From: Candidatus Gastranaerophilales bacterium
Lineage (GTDB): Bacteria > Cyanobacteriota > Vampirovibrionia > Gastranaerophilales > Gastranaerophilaceae
NCBI GenBank assembly: GCA_944326545.1
Contig: CALVEH010000006.1
Span: 1-64,000 of the forward strand
Length of the DNA stretch: 64,000 nt
Direction: 5' to 3'
Shown one piece after another: positions 4,953 to 56,196 of this stretch. Every line of letters starts with the position of its first letter. Position 1 is the stretch's first letter. Position numbers and translations under genes: made by a program. The notes beneath the pieces are model-generated. The model did not search any database. It was given only the letters and a program-made list of their open reading frames with translations, and had not been told where the DNA came from.

Positions 4953-6203
4953 ATGGATAATGTAGATTTTGATAATACATCTGGGTTGTCAGGCGTTAGA
5001 ATTGACAATTCTCTTGATGTTGCCTCTGATAGAACTATTAGAGCCTATGAATTGTATGAATCTAAAAGATACAATGAGGCTATATCTCTTATAGAAAATG
5101 ATTCACAGATTTCGTCTACGTCTTACGGACAGGTATTGTTAGGTAATTGTTGCAAGGCCCTTAATAATAAAGATAAAGCGATGTCTCATTGGAAGAGAGC
5201 TATTGATATTTCTCCATTAGAACATTTTGCATATATAAATATAGCAAATGAGTATTATGCTGATGGCAATATTTCTGAAGCTATTTTAAATTGGACGATT
5301 GCATCAACTATTGTTCCTGAAAATCCGCGAGTTAACTTAAACCTCGCTTGTGCATATAACCAAAAGGGCTTTAGAATTAAATCGACTAAATATTTTGAAA
5401 AGTATCTCAGATATGAGACCAAAGCCACTTCACGTGAATATTTGCAGGTAAAACATGTACTATCAAATCTTACTGCGAAGGTTGATTTTTTTACAAAAAA
5501 AGTAAATGAGTATAAAGTTAAAAAAGATATTAAAACTATTGCCGCTTTGTATTTAAAAATGATTGCGACTTATGCAAATCTTCCAAACATATATGCTAAT
5601 ATAGCTGAAATTTGCTATTTTGATAAAAACTATGAAAAAGCACTAGAGTTTTTTCTTTCTGTATATCTGAATTATCCTCATACACCAAAAATTTTGTTAG
5701 ATGTAGCAAATTTATGTTATATCTTAAACAAGCCGTCTTATGCTTATTGCTATTATTCAAAAGCTTTAAAATGTCTTTTAGAAGCTACATCTTACTATGT
5801 AAAATCTCAAGAAAAGATTAGAATGCTTTCTTATGTGCTTAAAGATACTGAACTTATTGACAGCCATTTGCAGGCAGCTAGGGAAGCCGAGGCGAATAAT
5901 GATTATGAAAAAGCGGTTGACGAATATGAAAATTATCTTATATTGACTGAGTCTGATAACCCTGATATAAAACAAATTATTGATAAGTATAAAATTTTTA
6001 TTAATCCTGAACCATTTGTTGTAAATGTTTTGTATTCTCAAATTCCTGAATTAATGAATAGAAAAAGGCTAAAAGCATGCGTTGAAGTTTGTGATAGAAT
6101 TATGAAATTATCTTCTGCTAATACAAAAGAAGTTGTTTATGCGATGAAGTGTAAAGCTGATTGCAAGCGTATTCTTATAGCTAGGGAACAATTCGGTGTT
6201 TAA
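4953..6203 (+). CDS. Tetratricopeptide-repeat protein
   Basis: A 416-residue protein without signal peptide, made mostly of helical pairs of the TPR type. Examples are YGQVLLGNCCKALNNKDKAM (about 50-70), AYINIANEYYADGNISEAIL (about 92-112) and NIYANIAEICYFDKNYEKAL (about 210-230). TPRs mediate protein-protein contacts, so a scaffold role is likely; nothing points to an enzyme. The stop overlaps the GTG start of the next gene by 8 bp, which implies translational coupling to the cysteine-cluster protein. At least three other TPR-type proteins occur in this window. Confidence 0.85.
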   Translation: MDNVDFDNTSGLSGVRIDNSLDVASDRTIRAYELYESKRYNEAISLIENDSQISSTSYGQVLLGNCCKALNNKDKAMSHWKRAIDISPLEHFAYINIANEYYADGNISEAILNWTIASTIVPENPRVNLNLACAYNQKGFRIKSTKYFEKYLRYETKATSREYLQVKHVLSNLTAKVDFFTKKVNEYKVKKDIKTIAALYLKMIATYANLPNIYANIAEICYFDKNYEKALEFFLSVYLNYPHTPKILLDVANLCYILNKPSYAYCYYSKALKCLLEATSYYVKSQEKIRMLSYVLKDTELIDSHLQAAREAEANNDYEKAVDEYENYLILTESDNPDIKQIIDKYKIFINPEPFVVNVLYSQIPELMNRKRLKACVEVCDRIMKLSSANTKEVVYAMKCKADCKRILIAREQFGV

Positions 6204-6600
6204 TAAACTAAAAAAATTTTTCTATAAAAAAATACTTAGGCGCACATATTACCGTACCGGAAAGTGCATTGGTTGCGGTGAATGTTGCAGACAGATTTAC
6301 GTTCGTCACATAAGAAATGTTGTTCAAACTGAAGAAGAGTTCGAACATTTGAAACTGCTTCATCCTTTTTATACTTATCTTAAAGTTACAGGTAAGGATG
6401 ATATTGGACTAATTTTTGAATGTCAAAAATTAGATAAAAATACAAACCGTTGCACTATTCATAAAAAACGTCCCGGAATTTGCCGTCGTTATCCTGTTGA
6501 GGCTATTTTTATGATGGGCGGTGAGCTTGGGAAAAATTGCGGATACAAGTTTACTCCTATTGAATCATTTGAAGAAGTATTTAATAACTTAAAAAAGTGA
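6196..6600 (+). CDS. YkgJ-family cysteine-cluster protein
   Basis: A 134-residue protein. A basic N-terminus is followed by the cluster C24-x2-C27-x2-C30-C31 (KCIGCGECC), then a distal set within FECQKL, RCTIHKKRPGICRRYP. This is the CxxCxxCC ... C ... C-x2-H-x2-RP-x2-CRxYP signature of the YkgJ/UPF0153 family, thought to bind zinc or an Fe-S cluster. The cellular role of the family is unsettled. It starts with GTG inside the end of the TPR gene and its last 12 bp overlap folP tail to tail. A second family member lies at 41245. Confidence 0.88.
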   Translation: MFNKLKKFFYKKILRRTYYRTGKCIGCGECCRQIYVRHIRNVVQTEEEFEHLKLLHPFYTYLKVTGKDDIGLIFECQKLDKNTNRCTIHKKRPGICRRYPVEAIFMMGGELGKNCGYKFTPIESFEEVFNNLKK

Positions 6601-7770
6601 TTTACACAGTTTCTTGGCAATATTACTTGATTCTACGTTGTGAACTCTAATTATATTAACTTTTTGTTCAATTAGCCTTTCTGTTAGGATTGCCGTAGCT
6701 GTATCAAGTATATCTGTGTCTTCACTACAAATAGTTTCTTTAATGAATGTTTTACGTGAATGTCCTACAAGTATTGCACAACCTAATGTTTTTAGTTCGT
6801 GTATTCTTTTTATGATTTCAAAATTTTGAGATGTGGTTTTGCCAAAGCCAATGCCTGGATCTATTATTATTTTTCTTTTTTCTATACCAAACTTTGTGAG
6901 TATGTTGATTTTGTTATAAAAATAGTCGAATATATCTTCTACTACATCTTTGTAATCTGTTTTTGTTTGCATAATATCTGGTGTTGCGCTGGCATGTGTT
7001 ATTATAATAGGACAGTTTGCTTCTTTTACAACACTTGCCATTTCTTTATCCCATTCTATTGCGGACGTATCATTTACTATGTCAACTCCTGCGTTTAATG
7101 CTTTTTGCGCGGTCGATGCATTTCTTGTGTCTATACTTAAAATGATAGATTTGTCGATTTTCCTTATTTCTTCAATAACAGGTAGAACTCTATTTTGTTC
7201 TTCTTCTGGAGAAACAGCTTTGCTGTAGGGTCTTGTTGATTCTCCTCCAATATCAACAATGTCTGCTCCATTTTTAACAAGTTGTTGATAATGAACTATT
7301 GCTTTGTCTATTGTGTTATATTTTCCGCCGTCAGAGAATGAGTCAGGGGTAATATTTAGAACCCCCATAATATAAGGCTCTTCCCAGTTTAATATTATAT
7401 CGCGAATTGTTAGGGGTTGAGGCTCGGATTTTACAATTTCTTTTAATTGCTGCGATAAATTAGACAATTTTAAAGGTTGATACTTCAGTTTTTCTGCTAT
7501 TTTAATTATTTCGTCAATACTGCCGCTTAAAATGCAGTCAGAAGATTCTATCTTTCCTGTGATAACTTCTCTGTGAACTGCGCAATCTGTTCCACAAGTT
7601 AACGCTGTTTGCTTTATAATATTAGCTTGTGCGCAAGATACACCGTATATTTTTATTGTTTTAAATATGTGTTTTTCAATGGCTTTTTTTGTATACGTTT
7701 TATCAAGACCTATTGATTTTAAGTCTTTTTCTTCGCATTGCAAAAACTTTATTTTAAATTCATTCTCCAT
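6589..7770 (-). CDS. folP: Dihydropteroate synthase with N-terminal extension
   Basis: Condenses 6-hydroxymethyl-dihydropterin diphosphate with p-aminobenzoate in folate synthesis. The TIM-barrel DHPS core begins near residue 132 with YIMGVLNITPDSFSDGG, followed by DIVDIGGESTRP, LSIDTR, GVDIVNDTSA and a late GHSRKTFIK. The protein is 393 residues against about 270-290 for a minimal DHPS. The extra 125 residues (with YGVSCAQANIIKQTALTCGT) resemble the N-terminal domain of long clostridial DHPS forms; their function is unclear. It converges on the YkgJ gene. Confidence 0.95.
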   Translation of the reverse strand: MENEFKIKFLQCEEKDLKSIGLDKTYTKKAIEKHIFKTIKIYGVSCAQANIIKQTALTCGTDCAVHREVITGKIESSDCILSGSIDEIIKIAEKLKYQPLKLSNLSQQLKEIVKSEPQPLTIRDIILNWEEPYIMGVLNITPDSFSDGGKYNTIDKAIVHYQQLVKNGADIVDIGGESTRPYSKAVSPEEEQNRVLPVIEEIRKIDKSIILSIDTRNASTAQKALNAGVDIVNDTSAIEWDKEMASVVKEANCPIIITHASATPDIMQTKTDYKDVVEDIFDYFYNKINILTKFGIEKRKIIIDPGIGFGKTTSQNFEIIKRIHELKTLGCAILVGHSRKTFIKETICSEDTDILDTATAILTERLIEQKVNIIRVHNVESSNIAKKLCKSLF

Positions 7771-7809
7771 AACTATAAATTAGCACAAATTGTACTAAAA
7801 GATGAAGAA

Positions 7810-8634
7810 CTAAATTCCGCAGCTGTCTAATGCGCAGTCAATCAATGCAGCAGTAACTTGTTCAGTAGCTTTTTTATGAGCATCTTTCTTTTGAACAACA
7901 TCAGGGATACCGTCATGATTTTCATCTGTTGCAGCTTCTTTGAATGTTCCAAATGCTGTTGTACCGCCAACAAGTGTTTTGGTACCTTTTTTCATAAGGT
8001 TTGCCCCAATTGCTTCTTCTTGTTCTTTTTGGATGATTTTTTTAACTTCTGCATTAACATCTTTTACTGTTAATTTTATACCTTTTTTCTCTGCAGCAGC
8101 TTTTATTTGTTTTTTAAGTGCTGCAAGTTCTTTTGCATCTTTGTGTGCTATTTCTGATAATTCTTTTTTGATACCGTTTTTACCAAGATCTTGAAGCAAT
8201 ATAAGAGCTTTGTTTCCTGAATTTATTAATACAGCTTTTACGCCTTTTTGTTTTTTTGATACGTGCTGAGATAACTCTTGTTGAGCTTTAGCTATACTTG
8301 TTAAAACTTTTCTACCAACTTTTCCAAACAAAGGTGTTGCTTGATTTAAAAAGCTATACAATCTGCCAGAAACAGCTGATGCTGTCAAGCCACTTGCTAA
8401 ACCTAACGCACCAACAATTGCAAAAGATTTTAGTGCGCTTGGTGTATGATTGTTTTCTCTAATTGCATCTGCTAATTTTTCAAGTTTTTCTGCTTTAAAT
8501 TCGTCATCACTTTTGCCAGTATTGTTTTCTTCTGTCAAAATTTGAGTGATTCTTGATATTTCACTTTCTCTTTGACCGAATTTTGCTCGATGAGAACCAT
8601 ATGCAGATGTAACGTTTGGATTAATTTGTAACAT
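7810..8634 (-). CDS. Unknown lineage protein with Ca-binding-type loop; paralogue of the 8694 gene
   Basis: A 274-residue protein with no classical signal peptide. From the N-terminus it has a short flexible leader with KFGQ (about residue 18), an acidic/basic helical stretch, a Gly/Ala-rich hydrophobic helix (about 72-95) of glycine-zipper character, a Lys/Ala-rich coiled region (about 100-215), a second Gly/Thr segment, and DENHDGIPDV near the C-terminus, matching a D-x-N-x-DGI-x-D calcium loop. Domain order matches the next gene upstream, so the two are a tandem duplication. The function is not known. Confidence 0.78.
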   Translation of the reverse strand: MLQINPNVTSAYGSHRAKFGQRESEISRITQILTEENNTGKSDDEFKAEKLEKLADAIRENNHTPSALKSFAIVGALGLASGLTASAVSGRLYSFLNQATPLFGKVGRKVLTSIAKAQQELSQHVSKKQKGVKAVLINSGNKALILLQDLGKNGIKKELSEIAHKDAKELAALKKQIKAAAEKKGIKLTVKDVNAEVKKIIQKEQEEAIGANLMKKGTKTLVGGTTAFGTFKEAATDENHDGIPDVVQKKDAHKKATEQVTAALIDCALDSCGI

Positions 8635-8693
8635 ATTTGTGATGCCTACCGTAAACTGTTATTAATGTTTCGCTTTGTAATTATTAAATCTTG

Positions 8694-9473
8694 TTATGCA
8701 GCGGAGTGTTGACCGATATCTGCGATACCGTCTCCGTCTTTATCTTTGTTTGCTGCTACTGCTGCAGTAGTACCAGCAGAGATACCAGCTGTTGTAGATG
8801 ATACCTTTTTGATTAAGTTGTCTGTTGCAACTAAATCTCTTTGTTCAAGCAATTGTTTGTAGTGTTCTGCTTGTTTTGATTTACCAGCAAGTTTCTTTTG
8901 AACTTCTGTTGCAATTTGTTTAGCAGTCAATTTTTTACCGTCTTTTTCTGCTGCTTTTTTTATTGCATTTTCAGCTGATTTTTTAATACTATCAATTTTT
9001 TGAGTTAATGTATCTTTTATTGCGTCAGTACCCTTTTGTGCATAATCATCAAGAGCTTCTAATCCTTTTTTAGCATTTGTCATAATAAAGCCTTTGATGC
9101 TCTTTTTACCAACTGAAGGGTTTTCGTTTACAAATTTTGTTAACTTTTGCAAACCTTTATTAACAAAACGAGTCAATGGTTGCATAACATGTGTTCTTAC
9201 TGCTTCGTTATTGGATGCTTTAGTTATTGCTTTTTGTAAACCAGCTTTACCAGCAATACCGGCTGCTGTAGCAATTGCTGCTATTTTTGTGAATGTTTTA
9301 AGTGGACCGTCAGACATTTTATCAGCAACATTTTCTAGGCTGTGGAAACTGTCTTCGTCATAACCTCTTGCGTCAGCATTTTCTAACCAGTCTGCTGCTG
9401 CATTAAGAACATCTGTGTTTCCTTTAAAAGATGGTTTTATCGGTGAACAACCTACCTGATGAATAGATGTCAT
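8694..9473 (-). CDS. Unknown lineage protein with Ca-binding-type loop; paralogue of the 7810 gene
   Basis: A 259-residue protein if started at the ATG at 9473, which has GGAG eight bases before it; a GTG three codons upstream is less well placed. Layout: a short leader ending in PSFKG, an acidic helix, an Ala/Gly-rich hydrophobic helix (about 60-80), Lys-rich helices, a Gly/Thr/Ala-rich segment, and NKDKDGDGIADIG at the C-terminus, a good D-x-D-x-DGI-x-D calcium-loop match. There is no secretion signal. It lies 59 bp upstream of its paralogue on the same strand, so co-transcription is likely. Confidence 0.78.
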   Translation of the reverse strand: MTSIHQVGCSPIKPSFKGNTDVLNAAADWLENADARGYDEDSFHSLENVADKMSDGPLKTFTKIAAIATAAGIAGKAGLQKAITKASNNEAVRTHVMQPLTRFVNKGLQKLTKFVNENPSVGKKSIKGFIMTNAKKGLEALDDYAQKGTDAIKDTLTQKIDSIKKSAENAIKKAAEKDGKKLTAKQIATEVQKKLAGKSKQAEHYKQLLEQRDLVATDNLIKKVSSTTAGISAGTTAAVAANKDKDGDGIADIGQHSAA

Positions 9474-9542
9474 TTCTAACACTCCAATTGTTTAATCTTA
9501 CTTTCACTTATATTTAATAAAAGCCTATAATACAGAAAATTG

Positions 9543-9596
9543 CTAGTTGAAAATATTTTTATTAAAAAATTGTAACATTGAAATATTATCAACTAG
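9543..9596. repeat. 16-bp imperfect inverted repeat upstream of the 8694 gene
   Basis: CTAGTTGAAAATATTT (9543-9558) and AAATATTATCAACTAG (9581-9596) pair at 15 of 16 positions around a 22-nt AT loop. It lies 70-120 bp upstream of the start of the 8694 gene, next to a -10-like TATTAT on the minus strand (9532-9527), so the inner arm covers the expected -35 region. An operator is more likely than a terminator, because no T-run follows. The rest of the gap 9483-9790 holds only the rel terminator. Confidence 0.55.
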
Positions 9597-9625
9597 AACC
9601 TAAGTATTATACAATAAATTCTCAT

Positions 9626-9649
9626 AAAAAAAAAGCTGCCTTGCAGCTT
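9626..9649 (-). terminator. Rho-independent terminator of rel
   Basis: On the minus strand, AAGCTGC-AAG-GCAGCTT (9649 to 9633) is followed directly by a run of nine T (9634 to 9626, sharing the last stem bases). It lies 141 bp after the rel stop. Confidence 0.85.
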
Positions 9650-9790
9650 ATACTTCATAATCTTGGGAGGAGATTTGGGGATTTGTTACATGTATATTAA
9701 TTCATTCTTAAAAAAATGTTTACCTTTTTAATTGTAAATTTAATAAAAATTTACAATCACTTTAAAAGCATGTAGTTTTTATGATATATC

Positions 9791-12049
9791 CTATTTCTTC
9801 TTTTTGGGCATGGTTTGCTGATTGCTTTTACTTTTAGATGTCCCTTGAATCCGCTTAACAGAAATAACTTCTGGTATTGATTGCAGTTTTGTTATTACTG
9901 TTTTTAATCTGTTGATGTTATCAACTTCAATGCCCATTTCAATAATACCGATTTTTTTAGCAGGATTTGATTTTATATTTGCATAGGCAATATTGGTATT
10001 ACATTCTGTTAGCTCAATCATAACGTCTTTTAATATACCCATTTTGTCTTGGACATCTATTCTGATTGAGGCAATATAGGTTTTGTTTAAGCCCTTGTCT
10101 GCCCATTTTATGTCAATTAGTCTTTCTTCAGGAACATTATCCAGTGATGCACAATCTACCCTGTGAATAGAAACGCCCTTGCTTCTAGTTACTACTCCAA
10201 CAATAGGTTCACCTGGTACAGGTGTGCAACATTTAGCAAAGTAATACAACATTCCTTCTAAGCCAACAATGTCGTTTTTGGATTTCTTAGCTTTTGATTG
10301 CGAAATAACTGGTTGTTCATCGTCAGTTGGTTTTTTAATTCTATTGGTTATCTTATTAACAGTTGTTTCACCGTAACCAAGAGCTGCAAGCAAGTCATCA
10401 ACGCAAGAGTAGTTCATTGATTCTGCTATTTGTCTAAGTTCTTGTGTCTTAACGAGTTCGTCAAATTTTGCTTTGCCGATTTCAGCCTCAAGCATATTGT
10501 GACCAAGCGTAATATGTTCTTCTCGTTTATTTTTCTTGTACCATTGCTTGATTTTTGATTGTGCAAGTTTTGTTACAACAAAATTTAGCCAATCAAGTCT
10601 TGGTGCTGGAGTTTTTGATGTCATAATTTCAACAATATCTCCGTTGTGGAGTTTTGTTGAAAGAGGACTTATTCTACCGTTAACAAGAGCTCCGGTTATT
10701 CTAAAACCTACATCCGTGTGTATTCTGAATGCAAAATCAACTGGGGTTGCGTCTTTAGGTAAATCTATAACATCACCCATTGGCGTGAATGCAAATACTT
10801 GATCTGAGAACAGGTCTAGTTTTACGCTTTCTACATATTCACTGGCTGAGGAAACGTCTTTTTCCATTTCAGCAAGTTTTCTCATCCAAGAAAATTGGAT
10901 ATCTGTTTCGGCGTTTGCTTTTTGAGAGCCCTTCTCTTTATATTTCCAGTGAGCTGCAACACCATATTCTGCTACTTGGTGCATTTCGTGCGTTCTTATT
11001 TGCACTTCAATAGGCTTTGATTTTGGCCCCAAAACAGAAGTGTGCAAAGAACGATACATATTGCTTTTTGGCATTGCAATATAATCTTTGAACCTTCCTG
11101 GAATAGGCTTAAATTGAGAGTGAATTATACCTAAAACCTCGTAGCACTCGTTTACTGAGTCAACAATTACCCTTACTGCTGAAATATCGTATAATTCGTG
11201 GAATGCTACATTTTGTCGTTTCATTTTTGCATATATAGAATAATAATGCTTAGAACGACCTGATATTGTAGCTTTTATTTTATGTTGTTTTAGAATTTGT
11301 TCTATTTTTTCAACAAGAACTTGTATTGTTGCATCTCTTTCAGCTTTTTTCAGCGCAACAAGTTGTGCTATTTCAAAATACTTTTCCGGATTTAAGTATC
11401 TCAAAGACAAATCTTCCAGCTCTGCCTTGATTTTTCCGATACCAAGACGATTAGCCAGTGGGGCAAAAATGTCTAATGTTTCTCTTGCAATTTTTTGTTG
11501 CTTTGCTGCTGCCATATAGTTGAGCGTACGCATGTTGTGAAGTCTGTCAGCAAGCTTTAAGAATATAACTCTGACATCGTTAGCCATAGCAATAAACATT
11601 CTTCGGAAGTTTTCGGCTTGGCGTTCTTCCTTAGATTTGAACTGGTATTTGCCTAATTTGGTTACACCTTGAACCAAATTAAGAACATCTTCTCCAAAAT
11701 GTTCTTTAATAGTTTCTGGCTCTGTTCCTGTATCTTCTATAATATCGTGCAATAGTGCAGCAATAATAGTATGTTTGTCCATCATCAGGTCTGTAAGTAT
11801 TTTTGCTACTTCTACGGGATGAACAATATATGGCTCTTCGCTTATTCTGTATTGTCCTGCGTGCAGTTTTGCCGCAAAGATGTATGCATCTTCGATTTCT
11901 TGTATATCTTTTTCGGGTCTGTGTTGTTGCACAAGCATATCTTTCAAAGGCTGAAAGATGCTAAAATCGGGACCTTGTTCTTCTTGCTCTTCTATAAACA
12001 TTGTATCTTCTTGAGATACTTGATTTTTTTCTTCACTATTGTCTGCCAT
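9791..12049 (-). CDS. rel: Bifunctional (p)ppGpp synthetase/hydrolase Rel
   Basis: Makes and degrades the alarmone (p)ppGpp. Domains in order: HD hydrolase (HPVEVAKILTDL, LLHDIIEDTG; about residues 70-190), synthetase (GRFKDYIAMPK, about 325), TGS (QVFAFTPMGDVIDLPKDAT, about 440-500), and a C-terminal zinc-finger/ACT region (CCTPVPGEPIVG, then VQDKMGILKDVM). The RFKD motif is the form found in bifunctional Rel/SpoT rather than monofunctional RelA, and the HD residues are present, so both activities are expected. I start it at the ATG at 12049 (MADNSEEK); a GTG at 12079 would overlap the divergent gene. Confidence 0.95.
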   Translation of the reverse strand: MADNSEEKNQVSQEDTMFIEEQEEQGPDFSIFQPLKDMLVQQHRPEKDIQEIEDAYIFAAKLHAGQYRISEEPYIVHPVEVAKILTDLMMDKHTIIAALLHDIIEDTGTEPETIKEHFGEDVLNLVQGVTKLGKYQFKSKEERQAENFRRMFIAMANDVRVIFLKLADRLHNMRTLNYMAAAKQQKIARETLDIFAPLANRLGIGKIKAELEDLSLRYLNPEKYFEIAQLVALKKAERDATIQVLVEKIEQILKQHKIKATISGRSKHYYSIYAKMKRQNVAFHELYDISAVRVIVDSVNECYEVLGIIHSQFKPIPGRFKDYIAMPKSNMYRSLHTSVLGPKSKPIEVQIRTHEMHQVAEYGVAAHWKYKEKGSQKANAETDIQFSWMRKLAEMEKDVSSASEYVESVKLDLFSDQVFAFTPMGDVIDLPKDATPVDFAFRIHTDVGFRITGALVNGRISPLSTKLHNGDIVEIMTSKTPAPRLDWLNFVVTKLAQSKIKQWYKKNKREEHITLGHNMLEAEIGKAKFDELVKTQELRQIAESMNYSCVDDLLAALGYGETTVNKITNRIKKPTDDEQPVISQSKAKKSKNDIVGLEGMLYYFAKCCTPVPGEPIVGVVTRSKGVSIHRVDCASLDNVPEERLIDIKWADKGLNKTYIASIRIDVQDKMGILKDVMIELTECNTNIAYANIKSNPAKKIGIIEMGIEVDNINRLKTVITKLQSIPEVISVKRIQGTSKSKSNQQTMPKKKK

Positions 12050-12096
12050 AGTAAAATATTGTACACTTTTAGGTGGCACTATACAAGGGGTATGAA

Positions 12097-12396
12097 GTGG
12101 AAAATTTTTATTCTGAGGCAGGTGATGGGATTATTTTAAAAATTAAAGCCGTGCCTAATTCGTCTAAAAATGAGATTTGTGGGTTATTGGATAATGCGTT
12201 GAAGGTTAAAATCAAGGCGCCTGCTGTTGAGAATAAAGCAAATGAAGAATTGGTTAAGTTCTTTTCAAAACTTTTGAAAGTTCCTAAATCTTCAGTAATA
12301 CTCAAGTCTGGTGGAACATCTAAGTTAAAATCTCTTTATATAGAAGGGTGTACTATTGATAAATTAAATGATGTTTGTGGTAATATTAGCTTATAA
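12097..12396 (+). CDS. DUF167/YggU-family protein
   Basis: About 99 residues. The pattern LKIKAVPNSSKNEICGL, then ALKVKIKAPAVENKANEELVKFFSKLL and SGGTSKLK, is that of the DUF167 family of small alpha/beta proteins of unknown function. I chose the GTG at 12097 because AAGGGG (12085-12090) stands six bases before it; a longer in-frame start at 12073 would overlap the rel leader and has no such site. It is divergent from rel with 47 bp between starts and is followed by secG after 23 bp. Confidence 0.88.
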   Translation: MENFYSEAGDGIILKIKAVPNSSKNEICGLLDNALKVKIKAPAVENKANEELVKFFSKLLKVPKSSVILKSGGTSKLKSLYIEGCTIDKLNDVCGNISL

Positions 12397-12419
12397 TTAT
12401 TATTAATTAAGGAAGAAAT

Positions 12420-12647
12420 ATGATAACTACTGTATTTTGGATTGTACAAATTGTCTCATCATTACTTTTAATATTGCTTGTTATGATACATTCTCCAAAA
12501 GGAGATGGAATCGCAGGTATTGGCGGAGCTTCTCATGTTTTTGCTTCACAAAAGAATGCAGAATCTGGTTTAAATAAGCTTACAATGTGGGTAGCTATAG
12601 TGTTTTTTGTTTCAACATTTATAGCCGGCTTTAATTTATTTGGCTAA
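12420..12647 (+). CDS. secG: Protein translocase subunit SecG
   Basis: A small 75-residue subunit of the SecYEG export channel in the inner membrane. Two membrane helices (about 4-24 and 55-73) flank the conserved cytosolic loop, which here reads LLVMIHSPKGDGIAGIGGAS. AAGGAAG precedes the ATG at a good distance. It follows the DUF167 gene by 23 bp and both are probably one transcript. The stop codon merges with the A-run that is the T-run of the opposite-strand terminator. Confidence 0.93.
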   Translation: MITTVFWIVQIVSSLLLILLVMIHSPKGDGIAGIGGASHVFASQKNAESGLNKLTMWVAIVFFVSTFIAGFNLFG

Positions 12648-12720
12648 AAAAAACACCACCGTCCTATTATACTTGCATTAGGTGTGATGAGCAGTTTTTA
12701 TTGTAAGTTAATAAGACGGT
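12646..12720 (-). terminator. Long-stem terminator-like hairpin after the LysM/glucosaminidase gene
   Basis: The arms 12658-12677 and 12702-12720 pair over about 18 positions with one bulge and one C-A mismatch (ACCGTC...GACGGT at the base) around a 24-nt loop. On the minus strand the stem is followed by GGTG and eight T (12653 to 12646). It lies 38 bp after the stop of the 12759 gene. The stem and loop are longer than in a standard terminator. Confidence 0.6.
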
Positions 12721-12758
12721 AGCATTTGTGATTGCATTGTATAGTGTGTTTGCATTGT

Positions 12759-13658
12759 TTATGCTGTTGATGCTGTATTATTAATAATGTCTTTCATGTA
12801 TTTTCCAACATTCCTTGGCCAATATTGGTTTAGTTGGTCTTTGTCGCTTTTGTCGTCAATAGGACAGTATTTTGCTCCTACGGCTTTAATTGTTTTTCTG
12901 CCTTTATTAATATAGTTTCTTTTTAGCATAGATGCCATATCTTCAAGACAGTCTGATACATTTTGATAAGTCCTGAATCTATAGCTTCCTGCATATCGAA
13001 TACCGCCAACGTTATTTCGTTTACGGGCACTGTAGCTTGTTCCGTTTCGCGATTCGTTAATAGCTATAGCGGCGAGAAAGGCAGCATTGATTCCATACTT
13101 ATCTTGTAATTGCATAAATTTTTCACCCTGTCCTTTCAGAACTCCTCCAAGGTGTTTGTCAATTTCTGAGGCTTTGCCTTTATAGTCTGTTGTAATATCT
13201 AAATTGTGTATGTTGTTTGTTGTCAGTTTTACAGTTTGGGTTTCAACTTGCTGATTTTGTTGAGATGATTCAATTTTAATTTTTTCCTGATTATCAGAAG
13301 CCCTTTCTGCTTCTTGATTCATTCTGCTTTCTGTTCTTGATTTTAAAAACGGTGATGACGCCAGCCGTTTTTGTCCGTTAAATTGGACATTGTTTGGACA
13401 ATACATGTCTACAGGTGAATCAATCGTGTTAAATACAAAGCAAGGGCTTCTGTCAGGAGTTTTTGTCGGTGCTGGTTTTTCTTGATCTTTATAAAGTTTT
13501 AGATGCTGACCAACAAAAATAGAATTCATGTTTTTTAAACCATTAAGTTCAGCAATTTCTCTAACTTTTTTACTGATTTCAGCATTATTGTCTATTTTTA
13601 GCTCTTTTTTGACAATTTTCCATAAGCTGTCACCACGCTTAATTTTGTAGTCAGTCAT
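12759..13658 (-). CDS. LysM plus glucosaminidase (GH73-like) peptidoglycan hydrolase
   Basis: About 299 residues from the ATG at 13658, ten bases after AGAGGAG. An N-terminal LysM domain (YKIKRGDSLWKIVKKEL ... IFVGQHLKLY, about 4-55) should bind peptidoglycan. A Gln/Thr-rich linker follows (about 60-160). The C-terminal domain has AIAINESRNGTSYSARKRNN, with the Glu and Asn pattern of GH73 N-acetylglucosaminidases such as those fused to FlgJ. No N-terminal signal peptide is visible, so export would need another route. In a flagellated cell it may open the wall for the rod; that is inference. Confidence 0.82.
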   Translation of the reverse strand: MTDYKIKRGDSLWKIVKKELKIDNNAEISKKVREIAELNGLKNMNSIFVGQHLKLYKDQEKPAPTKTPDRSPCFVFNTIDSPVDMYCPNNVQFNGQKRLASSPFLKSRTESRMNQEAERASDNQEKIKIESSQQNQQVETQTVKLTTNNIHNLDITTDYKGKASEIDKHLGGVLKGQGEKFMQLQDKYGINAAFLAAIAINESRNGTSYSARKRNNVGGIRYAGSYRFRTYQNVSDCLEDMASMLKRNYINKGRKTIKAVGAKYCPIDDKSDKDQLNQYWPRNVGKYMKDIINNTASTA

Positions 13659-13781
13659 TAAGTACAATCTCCTCTTAAGATATCCAAGTCAAATTATTTT
13701 ACTTACTCATCACTTATATATAAAAACTAATTCTTTTTTTGAATTTCAGGAGATTGGTATTTTGTAATATTTGTTTACAAG

Positions 13782-53876: not shown

Positions 53877-54422
53877 GTGTACGCAATTTTTACAATGCGA
53901 AAACTACAATTGACTCAGCGAATCAACAACCTTCAATGCAGATTGATGGAGTTGTCACAAAAGCTTCAAGATCTTTCTGTTTATGCAGGTAACGTCGCTG
54001 ACGGGGTAATTACCCCGGGTGAGTTTATGAGCTCTCCGGCAAGCATTTTCGGCGCTAATATGAATTTCTTTAACAATAGCGTTCCGCAAGCTCTATTTGA
54101 GGCTTCAAGATCAACTCAGATCTACAACTCAAATATGATGAACATGAATGCTGCTTCAGGTGGTCAATACGGTATGATAGTTGATCCATCTAGACCTCAA
54201 TCAATCTACGCCAACCAATTCTTTGTATTTAACGCATTCTTTAAACAAGCTCTTGATGCTGCAGGTAAAGCTGAAGCTCAACAAGTAAAACGTTTAGAGA
54301 CAGATATCACAAACCAAAAATTAATGATTGAAACGCAATTGAAGGCTGCAGAAACTGAACTTCAAAAAGTTGAAGAACAAGAAAGTAAGAATATAGAAAA
54401 GACTGCTCCTAAATATGCATAA
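53877..54422 (+). CDS. Unknown protein with coiled-coil ends
   Basis: A 181-residue protein starting with GTG at 53877; AGGAG stands nine bases upstream, which favours this start over an ATG six codons later. The N-terminal helix (LTQRINNLQCRLMELSQKLQ, about 12-37) and the C-terminal Gln/Glu-rich coiled-coil (about 125-175) flank an Asn/Met-rich middle (about 55-115) with FMSSPASIFGANMNFF. No signal peptide is present. Codons use C and A at third positions more than most neighbours, suggesting high expression. It has its own leader and a terminator 47 bp later. No family is recognised. Confidence 0.75.
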   Translation: MYAIFTMRKLQLTQRINNLQCRLMELSQKLQDLSVYAGNVADGVITPGEFMSSPASIFGANMNFFNNSVPQALFEASRSTQIYNSNMMNMNAASGGQYGMIVDPSRPQSIYANQFFVFNAFFKQALDAAGKAEAQQVKRLETDITNQKLMIETQLKAAETELQKVEEQESKNIEKTAPKYA

Positions 54423-54704: not shown

Positions 54705-54968
54705 ATGTATCAAGACGAAAAACTCATCTGCGAGGATTGTGGCGTAGAATTTATTTTTACAGCAGGTGAGCAAGAATTTTACGCAGAAAAAGGATTGGTA
54801 AATAAACCAAAACGTTGCAATGAATGTAGAAAAAAAAGACGTCAAAATAATAGAAAAAAGATGTATGACGTTGTTTGTTCAAAGTGTGGCGTAAAAACTC
54901 AAGTACCTTTTAAGCCTGTTTTAGGTAAGGAAGTCTATTGTAAAGAATGTTATAAATCTATGCACTAA
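54705..54968 (+). CDS. Double zinc-ribbon protein (CxxC-x17-CxxC type)
   Basis: An 87-residue protein with two metal sites. The first is ICEDCGVEF with RCNECRKKR (about 9-45); the second, VCSKCGVKT ... YCKECYKSM, has exactly 17 residues between the CxxC pairs, the named CxxC-x17-CxxC family. A basic linker (KKRRQNNRKK) joins them. Such proteins probably bind nucleic acid, but no role is established. AAGGAG precedes the ATG at the right distance. A bidirectional terminator begins at its stop codon. Confidence 0.88.
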   Translation: MYQDEKLICEDCGVEFIFTAGEQEFYAEKGLVNKPKRCNECRKKRRQNNRKKMYDVVCSKCGVKTQVPFKPVLGKEVYCKECYKSMH

Positions 54969-54991
54969 AAAGCACCCATTGGGTGCTTTTT
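54967..54991. terminator. Bidirectional terminator between convergent genes
   Basis: AAAAAGCACCC (54967-54977), loop ATT, GGGTGCTTTTT (54981-54991). It serves the zinc-ribbon gene on plus and the small-peptide genes on minus, and so supports transcription from the minus strand here. Confidence 0.9.
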
Positions 54992-55007
54992 AGCCTCTTT
55001 ATTTCTT

Positions 55008-55154
55008 TTACTTGTCATAAACCGATAGTACCGGTTGATTGTTTATGTCTGTTTCTGCTAATGCATTTATTGATGTGTAAAAATTTACCATACATAATAG
55101 TAATATTGCTATTAATGCATATTTGGCAATGTTTATTTCAGATATTTCTATCAT
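55008..55154 (-). CDS. 48-residue exported or membrane peptide
   Basis: A very short gene. The protein begins MIEISEINIAKYALIAILLL, continues through a hydrophobic core to NALA, and ends ETDINNQPVLSVYDK. This looks like a signal peptide with cleavage after ALA, leaving a 15-residue peptide, or alternatively a tiny membrane protein. GGGGTGG stands just before the start; a GTG two codons upstream (55160) is an alternative. It lies 47 bp downstream of the 53-codon gene and 17 bp before the bidirectional terminator, so the two form a minimal operon. No known family. Confidence 0.5.
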   Translation of the reverse strand: MIEISEINIAKYALIAILLLCMVNFYTSINALAETDINNQPVLSVYDK

Positions 55155-55201
55155 ATCCACCCCGATTGAATAGTAGTCGTTTCTCCTGTGTTGAACTTTG
55201 C

Positions 55202-55363
55202 CTATGCCATTGCGCAGAATGATCCACCCACATTATTAGCTAGTGAACCTGCTGTTTCAACTCCGCCAAATGCTAAAGAACCTGCTGTTTCAACTGGTTT
55301 ATGTTCCAGTCTTTCTGGCTGCTTGTTTGTTGTGAAAAGATTTCCGATTGCTGATACGTTCAT
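55202..55363 (-). CDS. 53-residue peptide with repeated VETAGSLA
   Basis: A very short gene with an excellent ribosome-binding site: AAGGAG seven bases before the ATG at 55363. The peptide starts MNVSAIGNLFTTNKQPERLE, then contains VETAGSLAFGG and VETAGSLANN as a direct repeat of 11 residues, and ends NVGGSFCAMA. It is neutral, has no signal peptide, and has a single Cys four residues from the end. Leader-plus-repeat with a terminal GG and Cys could be a precursor peptide, but no maturation enzyme is adjacent. The repeat is also visible in the DNA. No family is recognised. Confidence 0.55.
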   Translation of the reverse strand: MNVSAIGNLFTTNKQPERLEHKPVETAGSLAFGGVETAGSLANNVGGSFCAMA

Positions 55364-55492
55364 AATTTACTCCTTCTTCTTACATATTCTTCATAGATAT
55401 TTTTTACATACCTTGTATATATATAAAAACAATTTGTTTTTTCTAAATTCAATTATAATTTTTTTCATTACATTTCTTAACATTTGAAACTT

Positions 55493-55608: not shown

Positions 55609-56196
55609 ATGGGGAATGAAAATAAAGATAAAGCTGCTGAAGAAATAAAAAACGATAATAACCCTTTTGCGGCTGTAAATGATGTTAATGAAAAAAGTGA
55701 TTCTGTTTCTTCTGAACAAATTCCTGAAGATGGTGAAATTGCAGATGAAATCACTTCGCTTAAATCTGAATTGGAAAAAGTGAACAATCAATATATCAGA
55801 CTTGCTGCGGATTTTGATAATTATCGTAAAAGACAACTACAGGAAAGAGAAGCGTTGTTGAAATATGGTGCTGAAGAAACTTTGAAAAAGATGATTGAAG
55901 CACTTGATAATATAGACAGAGCGAAAAAGTCAGTAGAAAATGTTGATGACGTTAACACAGTAAAAGACAGTTATAATATTGTTTTTAAACAAATTTTTGA
56001 CGTTCTTGAAAAAATAGGACTTGAAGTCATAGATACAAAAGATAAGGAATTTGATCCTAATTGGCACGAAGCAGTGATGCAAACTCCAACTAGTGAATAT
56101 CCTGAAAATACTATTATTGCTGAATTACAAAAAGGATATAAACTAGGGGATAAAGTATTAAGACCATCGCTTGTTAATGTTGCAGTTAGTGAATAG
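55609..56196 (+). CDS. grpE: Nucleotide exchange factor GrpE
   Basis: Releases ADP from DnaK. A 195-residue protein with a disordered acidic start (1-45), a long coiled-coil (about 48-100, [31 protein letters not shown]) and the C-terminal beta domain ([30 protein letters not shown]). The stop TAG overlaps the region of the dnaJ start. DnaK itself is not in the window. Confidence 0.96.

Follow-up and report, generated by a model that had tools for sequence, protein, structure and literature searches.

A conserved two-gene operon of the Gastranaerophilales encodes a repeat peptide and a small membrane peptide behind an HLR1-like promoter

The closest described counterparts of the locus studied here are the RpaB/HLR1 regulon of photosynthetic cyanobacteria, small membrane peptides of the MgrB type (MgrB is a feedback peptide that acts on PhoQ) and short repeat or disordered bacterial proteins with linear motifs, and we know of no system that combines a disordered repeat peptide, a membrane peptide and a promoter of the HLR1 type. 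The RpaB/HLR1 regulon of photosynthetic cyanobacteria comprises scp/hli, psa and atpT genes (PMC6331805, PMC9241938), and HLR1, the element that RpaB binds and that these cyanobacteria use in light-stress control, is placed either between -45 and -60 or further upstream than the core promoter in genes that RpaB activates (PMC9241938, PMC6331805). The retention of RpaA, RpaB and NblS in non-photosynthetic gut Melainabacteria has been known since 2013 (PMC3787301), and homologs of rpaA, rpaB and nblS are kept in all three orders of the group (PMC4040986), with no known role there (PMC3787301, PMC4040986).

We undertook comparative analyses of two small unannotated genes, A and B, in a 64,000-nucleotide stretch of a Candidatus Gastranaerophilales genome, referred to here as the window, and found that they form an operon that is specific to the order Gastranaerophilales, a lineage of non-photosynthetic cyanobacteria. 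The combination of its parts is, to our knowledge, new, and the regulator and site that we propose for it are of a known kind. The locus has the following features:

54965..54993, no strand: palindromic hairpin of 13 bp between B and a convergent zinc-ribbon gene, probable shared terminator
55008..55154, minus strand: gene B, 48-residue predicted single-pass membrane peptide MIEISEINIAKYALIAILLLCMVNFYTSINALAETDINNQPVLSVYDK, ATG start, median dN/dS 0.29
55202..55363, minus strand: gene A, 53-residue peptide MNVSAIGNLFTTNKQPERLEHKPVETAGSLAFGGVETAGSLANNVGGSFCAMA, predicted disordered, ATG start, median dN/dS 0.20
55205..55228, minus strand: C-terminal tail of A, GGSFCAMA, conserved in the family
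55229..55261, minus strand: repeat 2 of A, VETAGSLANNV, from the translation and comparison with relatives
55262..55294, minus strand: repeat 1 of A, VETAGSLAFGG, from the translation and comparison with relatives
55370..55375, minus strand: ribosome-binding site AAGGAG of A, 6 nt 5' of the ATG
55420..55430, minus strand: promoter core GTTTTTATATA, conserved in nearly all genera
55467..55484, minus strand: HLR1-like box AATGTTAAGAAATGTAAT (reverse complement ATTACATTTCTTAACATT), a pair of direct repeats spaced by one helical turn and candidate binding site of RpaB

Both frames are present in the ORF translations as the original prediction had claimed, and the start of B lies 47 nt past the stop codon of A. 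An upstream GTG in the ORF listing would extend B to 50 residues, the ATG being the start that is kept in relatives. A was matched in 19 of the 22 other genomes of the genus at 70–89% identity with no stop codon, and B lies directly downstream of it in the same 19 genomes; the three congeners with no clear match to A or B (G004, G005 and G009) have completeness values of 80–86%. Conservation of A and of B in 19 of 22 congeners each rules out chance ORFs. Both genes are shown to be coding, conserved and under purifying selection, with a median dN/dS among 20 genomes of 0.20 for A and 0.29 for B (the latter partly saturated) and mismatch frequencies at codon positions 1, 2 and 3 of 0.15, 0.10 and 0.34 in A and 0.37, 0.23 and 0.54 in B. 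The frames are thus neither unconserved nor evolving at a dN/dS near 1, the two outcomes that the original prediction had set against itself.

The translation of A contains the 11-residue tandem repeat that had been described, in which VETAGSLA occurs twice, as well as its GGSFCAMA end, and the predicted AAGGAG ribosome-binding site is kept in congeners. Within the genus, A carries two ETAG repeats in the subgroup to which the window belongs and mostly three elsewhere, and the tail is always GGSF[CS]A[ML]A; its Cys swaps with Ser and Asn, both inside and among genera. AlphaFold produced no fold for A (mean pLDDT 53), and the peptide is predicted to be leaderless and intrinsically disordered. 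In its low complexity, variable repeat number and conserved motif, A is like short repeat or disordered bacterial proteins with linear motifs, but neither its ETAG motif nor its tail matches a described family, and it is paired with a membrane peptide.

For B, AlphaFold predicted one helix at residues 6–34, with pLDDT of ~95 across residues 11–30. The N-terminus is probably inside and the short tail outside, as the basic residues are mostly N-terminal to the helix. Members of the family are 46–52 residues long; most genera have SAF[ND][AG] at the C-terminal end, and the window's genus has mostly a [GV]Y-type tail. It had been proposed that B is exported and could release the peptide ETDINNQPVLSVYDK, but the ALA/E cleavage site required for this varies in congeners, where ALA is replaced by TLS, TFN, NLN, TMN, TLE and others, and the predicted helix runs on through the candidate signal-peptidase site. 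A released peptide signal is disfavoured for the same lack of a conserved signal-peptidase motif, and B is more plausibly a peptide anchored in the membrane.

The operon extends well beyond the window's genus. A DNA pattern of two A repeats was found in 51 of 383 genomes of the order, representing 13 of 52 genera, with no match for the backward control. The proteins that it identified are mostly 53–150 residues long and have tails such as GGSFNAVA, SGSFSAMA, GGLNLVA, GGFCAVG and SGFVC, and in several other genera a B-like peptide follows directly. The motif of A across the order is E-[TESA]-[AST]-G-[STA]-[LIVM]-A, in one to eight copies per protein, and the family form of the tail is Gly/Ser-rich and then mostly [FL][SNC]x[VMI][AG]. 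A profile of B built solely from 25 known pair members, when run on the 383 genomes, identified 40 further loci, nearly all in genomes outside its building set. An A-like ORF lies just upstream at all 40, with an E-x-[AST]-G repeat at 38 (37 by regular expression, plus genome G086 on full reading), a perfect AGGAG before A at 36 and a promoter matrix score above 15 at 35. The 40 loci cover families f1, f2, f3 and f6, and f7 was already among the known pairs; weak profile matches in genera g40, g50 and g7 had no promoter match there and were treated as noise. The claim of a real two-gene unit is therefore well founded, given conserved frames that are adjacent in 19 of 22 congeners and the presence of A upstream of B at each of the 40 further loci.

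The length of A ranges from 45 to 756 residues. The longest form, in G086 of genus g3 (L321, 10124–12394, minus strand), is Ser/Thr/Asn-rich with eight EEAGATIA repeats and a GGSSIA tail, and it is preceded by the same kind of promoter and followed by a B gene. A was found without a recognised B in g4, g12, g34, g41 and g46, which indicates that A need not always have B, and neither gene was found by these pattern and profile searches in ~31 of the 52 sampled genera, so that the order as a whole can do without their function. In some g37 genomes (L097, L106 and L107), an A-type gene is followed 73–90 nt on by a membrane protein of 71–74 residues in place of B, which we take to resemble DUF378, and one g37 genome (G100) has both this cassette and an A-B cassette. 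The second A gene of g37, with its different small membrane protein, fits with A working with small membrane partners. The order-wide family, the length range of A and the HLR1-like promoter were absent from the original prediction, as they required comparative data.

No relatives were found in 35 genomes from other orders of the class. In a scan of 84,980 species with one genome per species, the in-frame family occurred, among the matches listed, only in metagenome-assembled genomes of the Gastranaerophilales group. Pattern matches listed outside the Gastranaerophilales, as well as five in viral contigs, were unrelated once read in frame. The view that no known family is involved also held in the libraries, as searches of Pfam, NCBIfam, PHROGs, PADLOC and the PDB with A and B brought up nothing convincing and both proteins are outside every described family in the libraries searched. 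An A profile did match an antifreeze adhesin repeat in the PDB (4p99, E 0.004), a likeness in composition only, and matches of B to PHROGs were weak and scattered, each with at most three of 25 B members, leaving no shared phage small-protein match. PADLOC, a library of defence systems and not of all toxins, had no match for the pair, Rfam had none around the promoter, and a search of the literature on the repeat strings or small proteins of the order found nothing relevant.

The site of the pair is also shared among genera. B is convergent with the zinc-ribbon gene (Pfam zf_Tbcl), and grpE-dnaJ diverge from the other side of the pair, starting at 55609; this order of zinc ribbon, pair and grpE-dnaJ is common to g1, g49 and g35, and parts of it recur in g34 (grpE-dnaJ) and g48 (the zinc ribbon). 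The shared arrangement makes the locus look orthologous and not mobile, and the A-B unit is mostly single-copy. In f2 the pair comes after groEL, and in g20, g41 and g46 of f7 (L026, L091 and L115–L118) A is convergent with an HtrA-like serine protease gene, as judged by eye. Among 20 loci inspected over ~10–20 kb, the only recurrent neighbours of the pair were locus-specific housekeeping genes. The hairpin beyond B had been put forward as a bidirectional terminator; it is palindromic and terminator-like on its plus-strand side, and on the minus-strand side, where the T-run is part of the stem, a terminator is plausible.

Comparison of the upstream regions shows a predicted promoter architecture that is conserved across families, with a TGTTAA-N4-TGTAAC box at a fixed distance from GTTTTTATATA. 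Across genera the blocks read TGTTAA-N4-TGTAAC-AAAA, then [CT]TGAA[AT]T, then GTTTTTATATA-NN-TGTAAG, and most representatives share a single fixed register; in 20 congeners the region is conserved in blocks with the HLR1-like box nearly invariant. The promoter matrix has 52 bits, and no site in 128 kb of shuffled DNA scored higher than 8 with it. The box keeps a fixed spacing to GTTTTTATATA in most genera and, with TATATA taken as the -10 element, would lie at about -69 to -54, on the side from which RpaB activates. It agrees with HLR1 at 13–16 of 16 positions across 27 representatives: 14 in the window (an imperfect match), 15 in g48, g32b and g37b and all 16 in g53 and g41, whereas it is weak or absent in g49 and f2. 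The g32b box is identical at 15 of 16 positions to the HLR1 of Synechocystis scpB (PMC6331805). With the window's box taken alone, 6.5% of shuffles score as high as its 14 of 16; its significance comes from its conservation. Of the 310 neighbouring genes that were tested, five have the box and core together upstream, and each of these is an A gene. A palindromic reading of the promoter (TGTTAC-N5-GTAACA) was perfect solely at two promoters of MGLAAS genes and was set aside for the direct-repeat HLR1 reading.

Perfect matches to TGTAA-N37-GTTTTTATATA number four in the genome and precede A, two MGLAAS genes and the gene of a 441-residue coiled-coil protein; both MGLAAS genes are truncated by contig ends (L360 and L361, on C7 and C16). 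A weaker match (13717–13769) lies before a LysM-glucosaminidase gene (12759–13658, minus strand), whose product has no evident signal peptide. The genes that share the composite promoter hint at an envelope or export regulon. The MG[LM]AASQAR protein family has several copies in the genome, including L387 (C6:116390), and the copy tested had no Pfam or NCBIfam match. Elsewhere, a 181-residue protein of unassigned family (53877–54422, plus strand) is preceded by a GTTTTTATATA core with GCAATTTT in place of an HLR1 box, and a calpain-like protein (L364, G000:C1:285518), which presumably resembles calpain-type cysteine proteases by its motif NNCWFLS, is encoded near a weak promoter-core match.

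The finding of the pair is real, and its molecular function is what we infer here. There are three strong OmpR-type regulators in the genome, one of which (L354; closest PDB names MtrA, RegX3 and RpaA) we take to be RpaB-like, in part from the literature on the group (PMC3787301). We favour, tentatively, the reading that the pair is an RpaB-controlled envelope module of a disordered multivalent peptide and a membrane peptide. Transcription would start from the composite promoter, probably ~60 nt downstream of the HLR1-type box, and OmpR-type RpaB, with its kinase NblS, would be the most likely activator since the upstream box is an HLR1-type direct repeat in a conserved composite promoter. B would act as a small modulator or anchor within the inner membrane, with A as its cytoplasmic multivalent partner that binds a common receptor through its repeats, so that the two may adjust an envelope or sensor function while RpaB is active. 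Potentially, there is also feedback on NblS, by analogy with MgrB and PhoQ. The fuller proposal, that ancestral RpaB/NblS signalling in gut cyanobacteria drives a new envelope module whose membrane peptide feeds back on the kinase, is a possibility about which we are doubtful.

The envelope module would be like the RpaB/HLR1 regulon in its direct-repeat box, which agrees with HLR1 at 14–16 of 16 positions and, if TATATA is the -10 element, would be placed as in RpaB-activated genes, in the presence of an RpaB-like regulator in the same genome and in B, as the targets of that regulon include small single-helix membrane proteins. It differs in that the present host is non-photosynthetic, the box at A is reversed relative to the consensus as printed, A and B share no sequence with Hli/Scp proteins and the RpaB site at A is a candidate. 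The likeness to MgrB-type peptides lies in the 46–52 residues of B, its single helix with probable N-in/C-out orientation and its predicted control by a regulator of the OmpR family that has a membrane kinase; the differences are that no sequence relation was seen for B, its partner A is disordered and feedback is proposed by analogy.

Two other readings are unlikely. One is that A is a leaderless export substrate of a type III (flagellar-like) system with B as a membrane helper, the promoter marking a regulon of substrates and helpers. It is consistent with the two full FlhA/SctV-type export gates and a partial match in the genome, with the other perfect promoter matches, which lie before MGLAAS genes whose products are leaderless and before the gene of a coiled-coil protein whose N-terminus is likewise rich in Ser, Gly and Asn, and with the weaker match before the LysM-glucosaminidase gene. 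However, the pair is found in the same genera as the flagellar-type gate no more often than chance would explain (14/16/7/15, Fisher p 0.39), the second gate is near-universal in the order and hence uninformative, and the export-gate loci examined had no such promoter. The gates themselves are at L391 (G000:C1:1286–3400) and L392 (G000:C4, ORFs 5811–12777), with L390 also listed and the third match a partial FHIPEP; one scores above the FlhA cut-off, and the other, below the FlhA and SctV cut-offs, is beside FliF/SctJ-, FliH/SctL- and FliI/SctN-like genes. At least one FHIPEP match was found in each of the 383 genomes of the order.

The other reading, to which we give similarly little weight, is that A and B are independent small genes on a shared transcript, A being a structural or surface repeat protein and B an unrelated envelope peptide. 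This would account for A without B in several genera, in forms that are longer and more repetitive, but A was upstream at all 40 loci found through B alone and some A paralogs are followed by another small membrane gene instead of B.

Much less probable is a ribosomally made modified or double-glycine-type secreted peptide, as had been suggested, with the short tail after GG as its core and B for immunity or leader handling. Many A members do have GG ahead of a short conserved hydrophobic tail, the size and repeat modules of A are precursor-like, and the gene order of precursor and small membrane protein recalls bacteriocin-immunity pairs. Set against this, Cys, Ser and Asn interchange freely in the tail, and the Cys/Ser alternation argues against Cys-based modification; many members have no GG (SSSSFCAIA, TSISCVA, SGWVA), A reaches 756 residues in g3, there is no NCBIfam match and no gene of a modifying enzyme or peptidase recurs beside the pair in 20 loci over ~10–20 kb. 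The toxin-like pair that had also been suggested, in which B would be the membrane-active toxin of a small-toxin unit or of a type I or II toxin-antitoxin unit, is the least probable reading of all. Two small genes do form one unit, and B, with its one predicted helix, is like known membrane toxins in size. Against it, the unit occurs mostly as a single copy at a syntenic, orthologous position (in three genera) and is present in almost all good genomes of the genus, both genes are under purifying selection, the regulated promoter is conserved, the ribosome-binding site is strong and PADLOC has no match.

For the Gastranaerophilales, these results indicate that two peptides below annotation length cut-offs are members of protein families found across many genera of a common gut lineage. 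The conserved HLR1-type promoter before this order-specific pair provides a defined candidate target of RpaB in that lineage. If the proposed control by RpaB is true, 'light-stress' signalling would have this module as a direct output in the dark gut.
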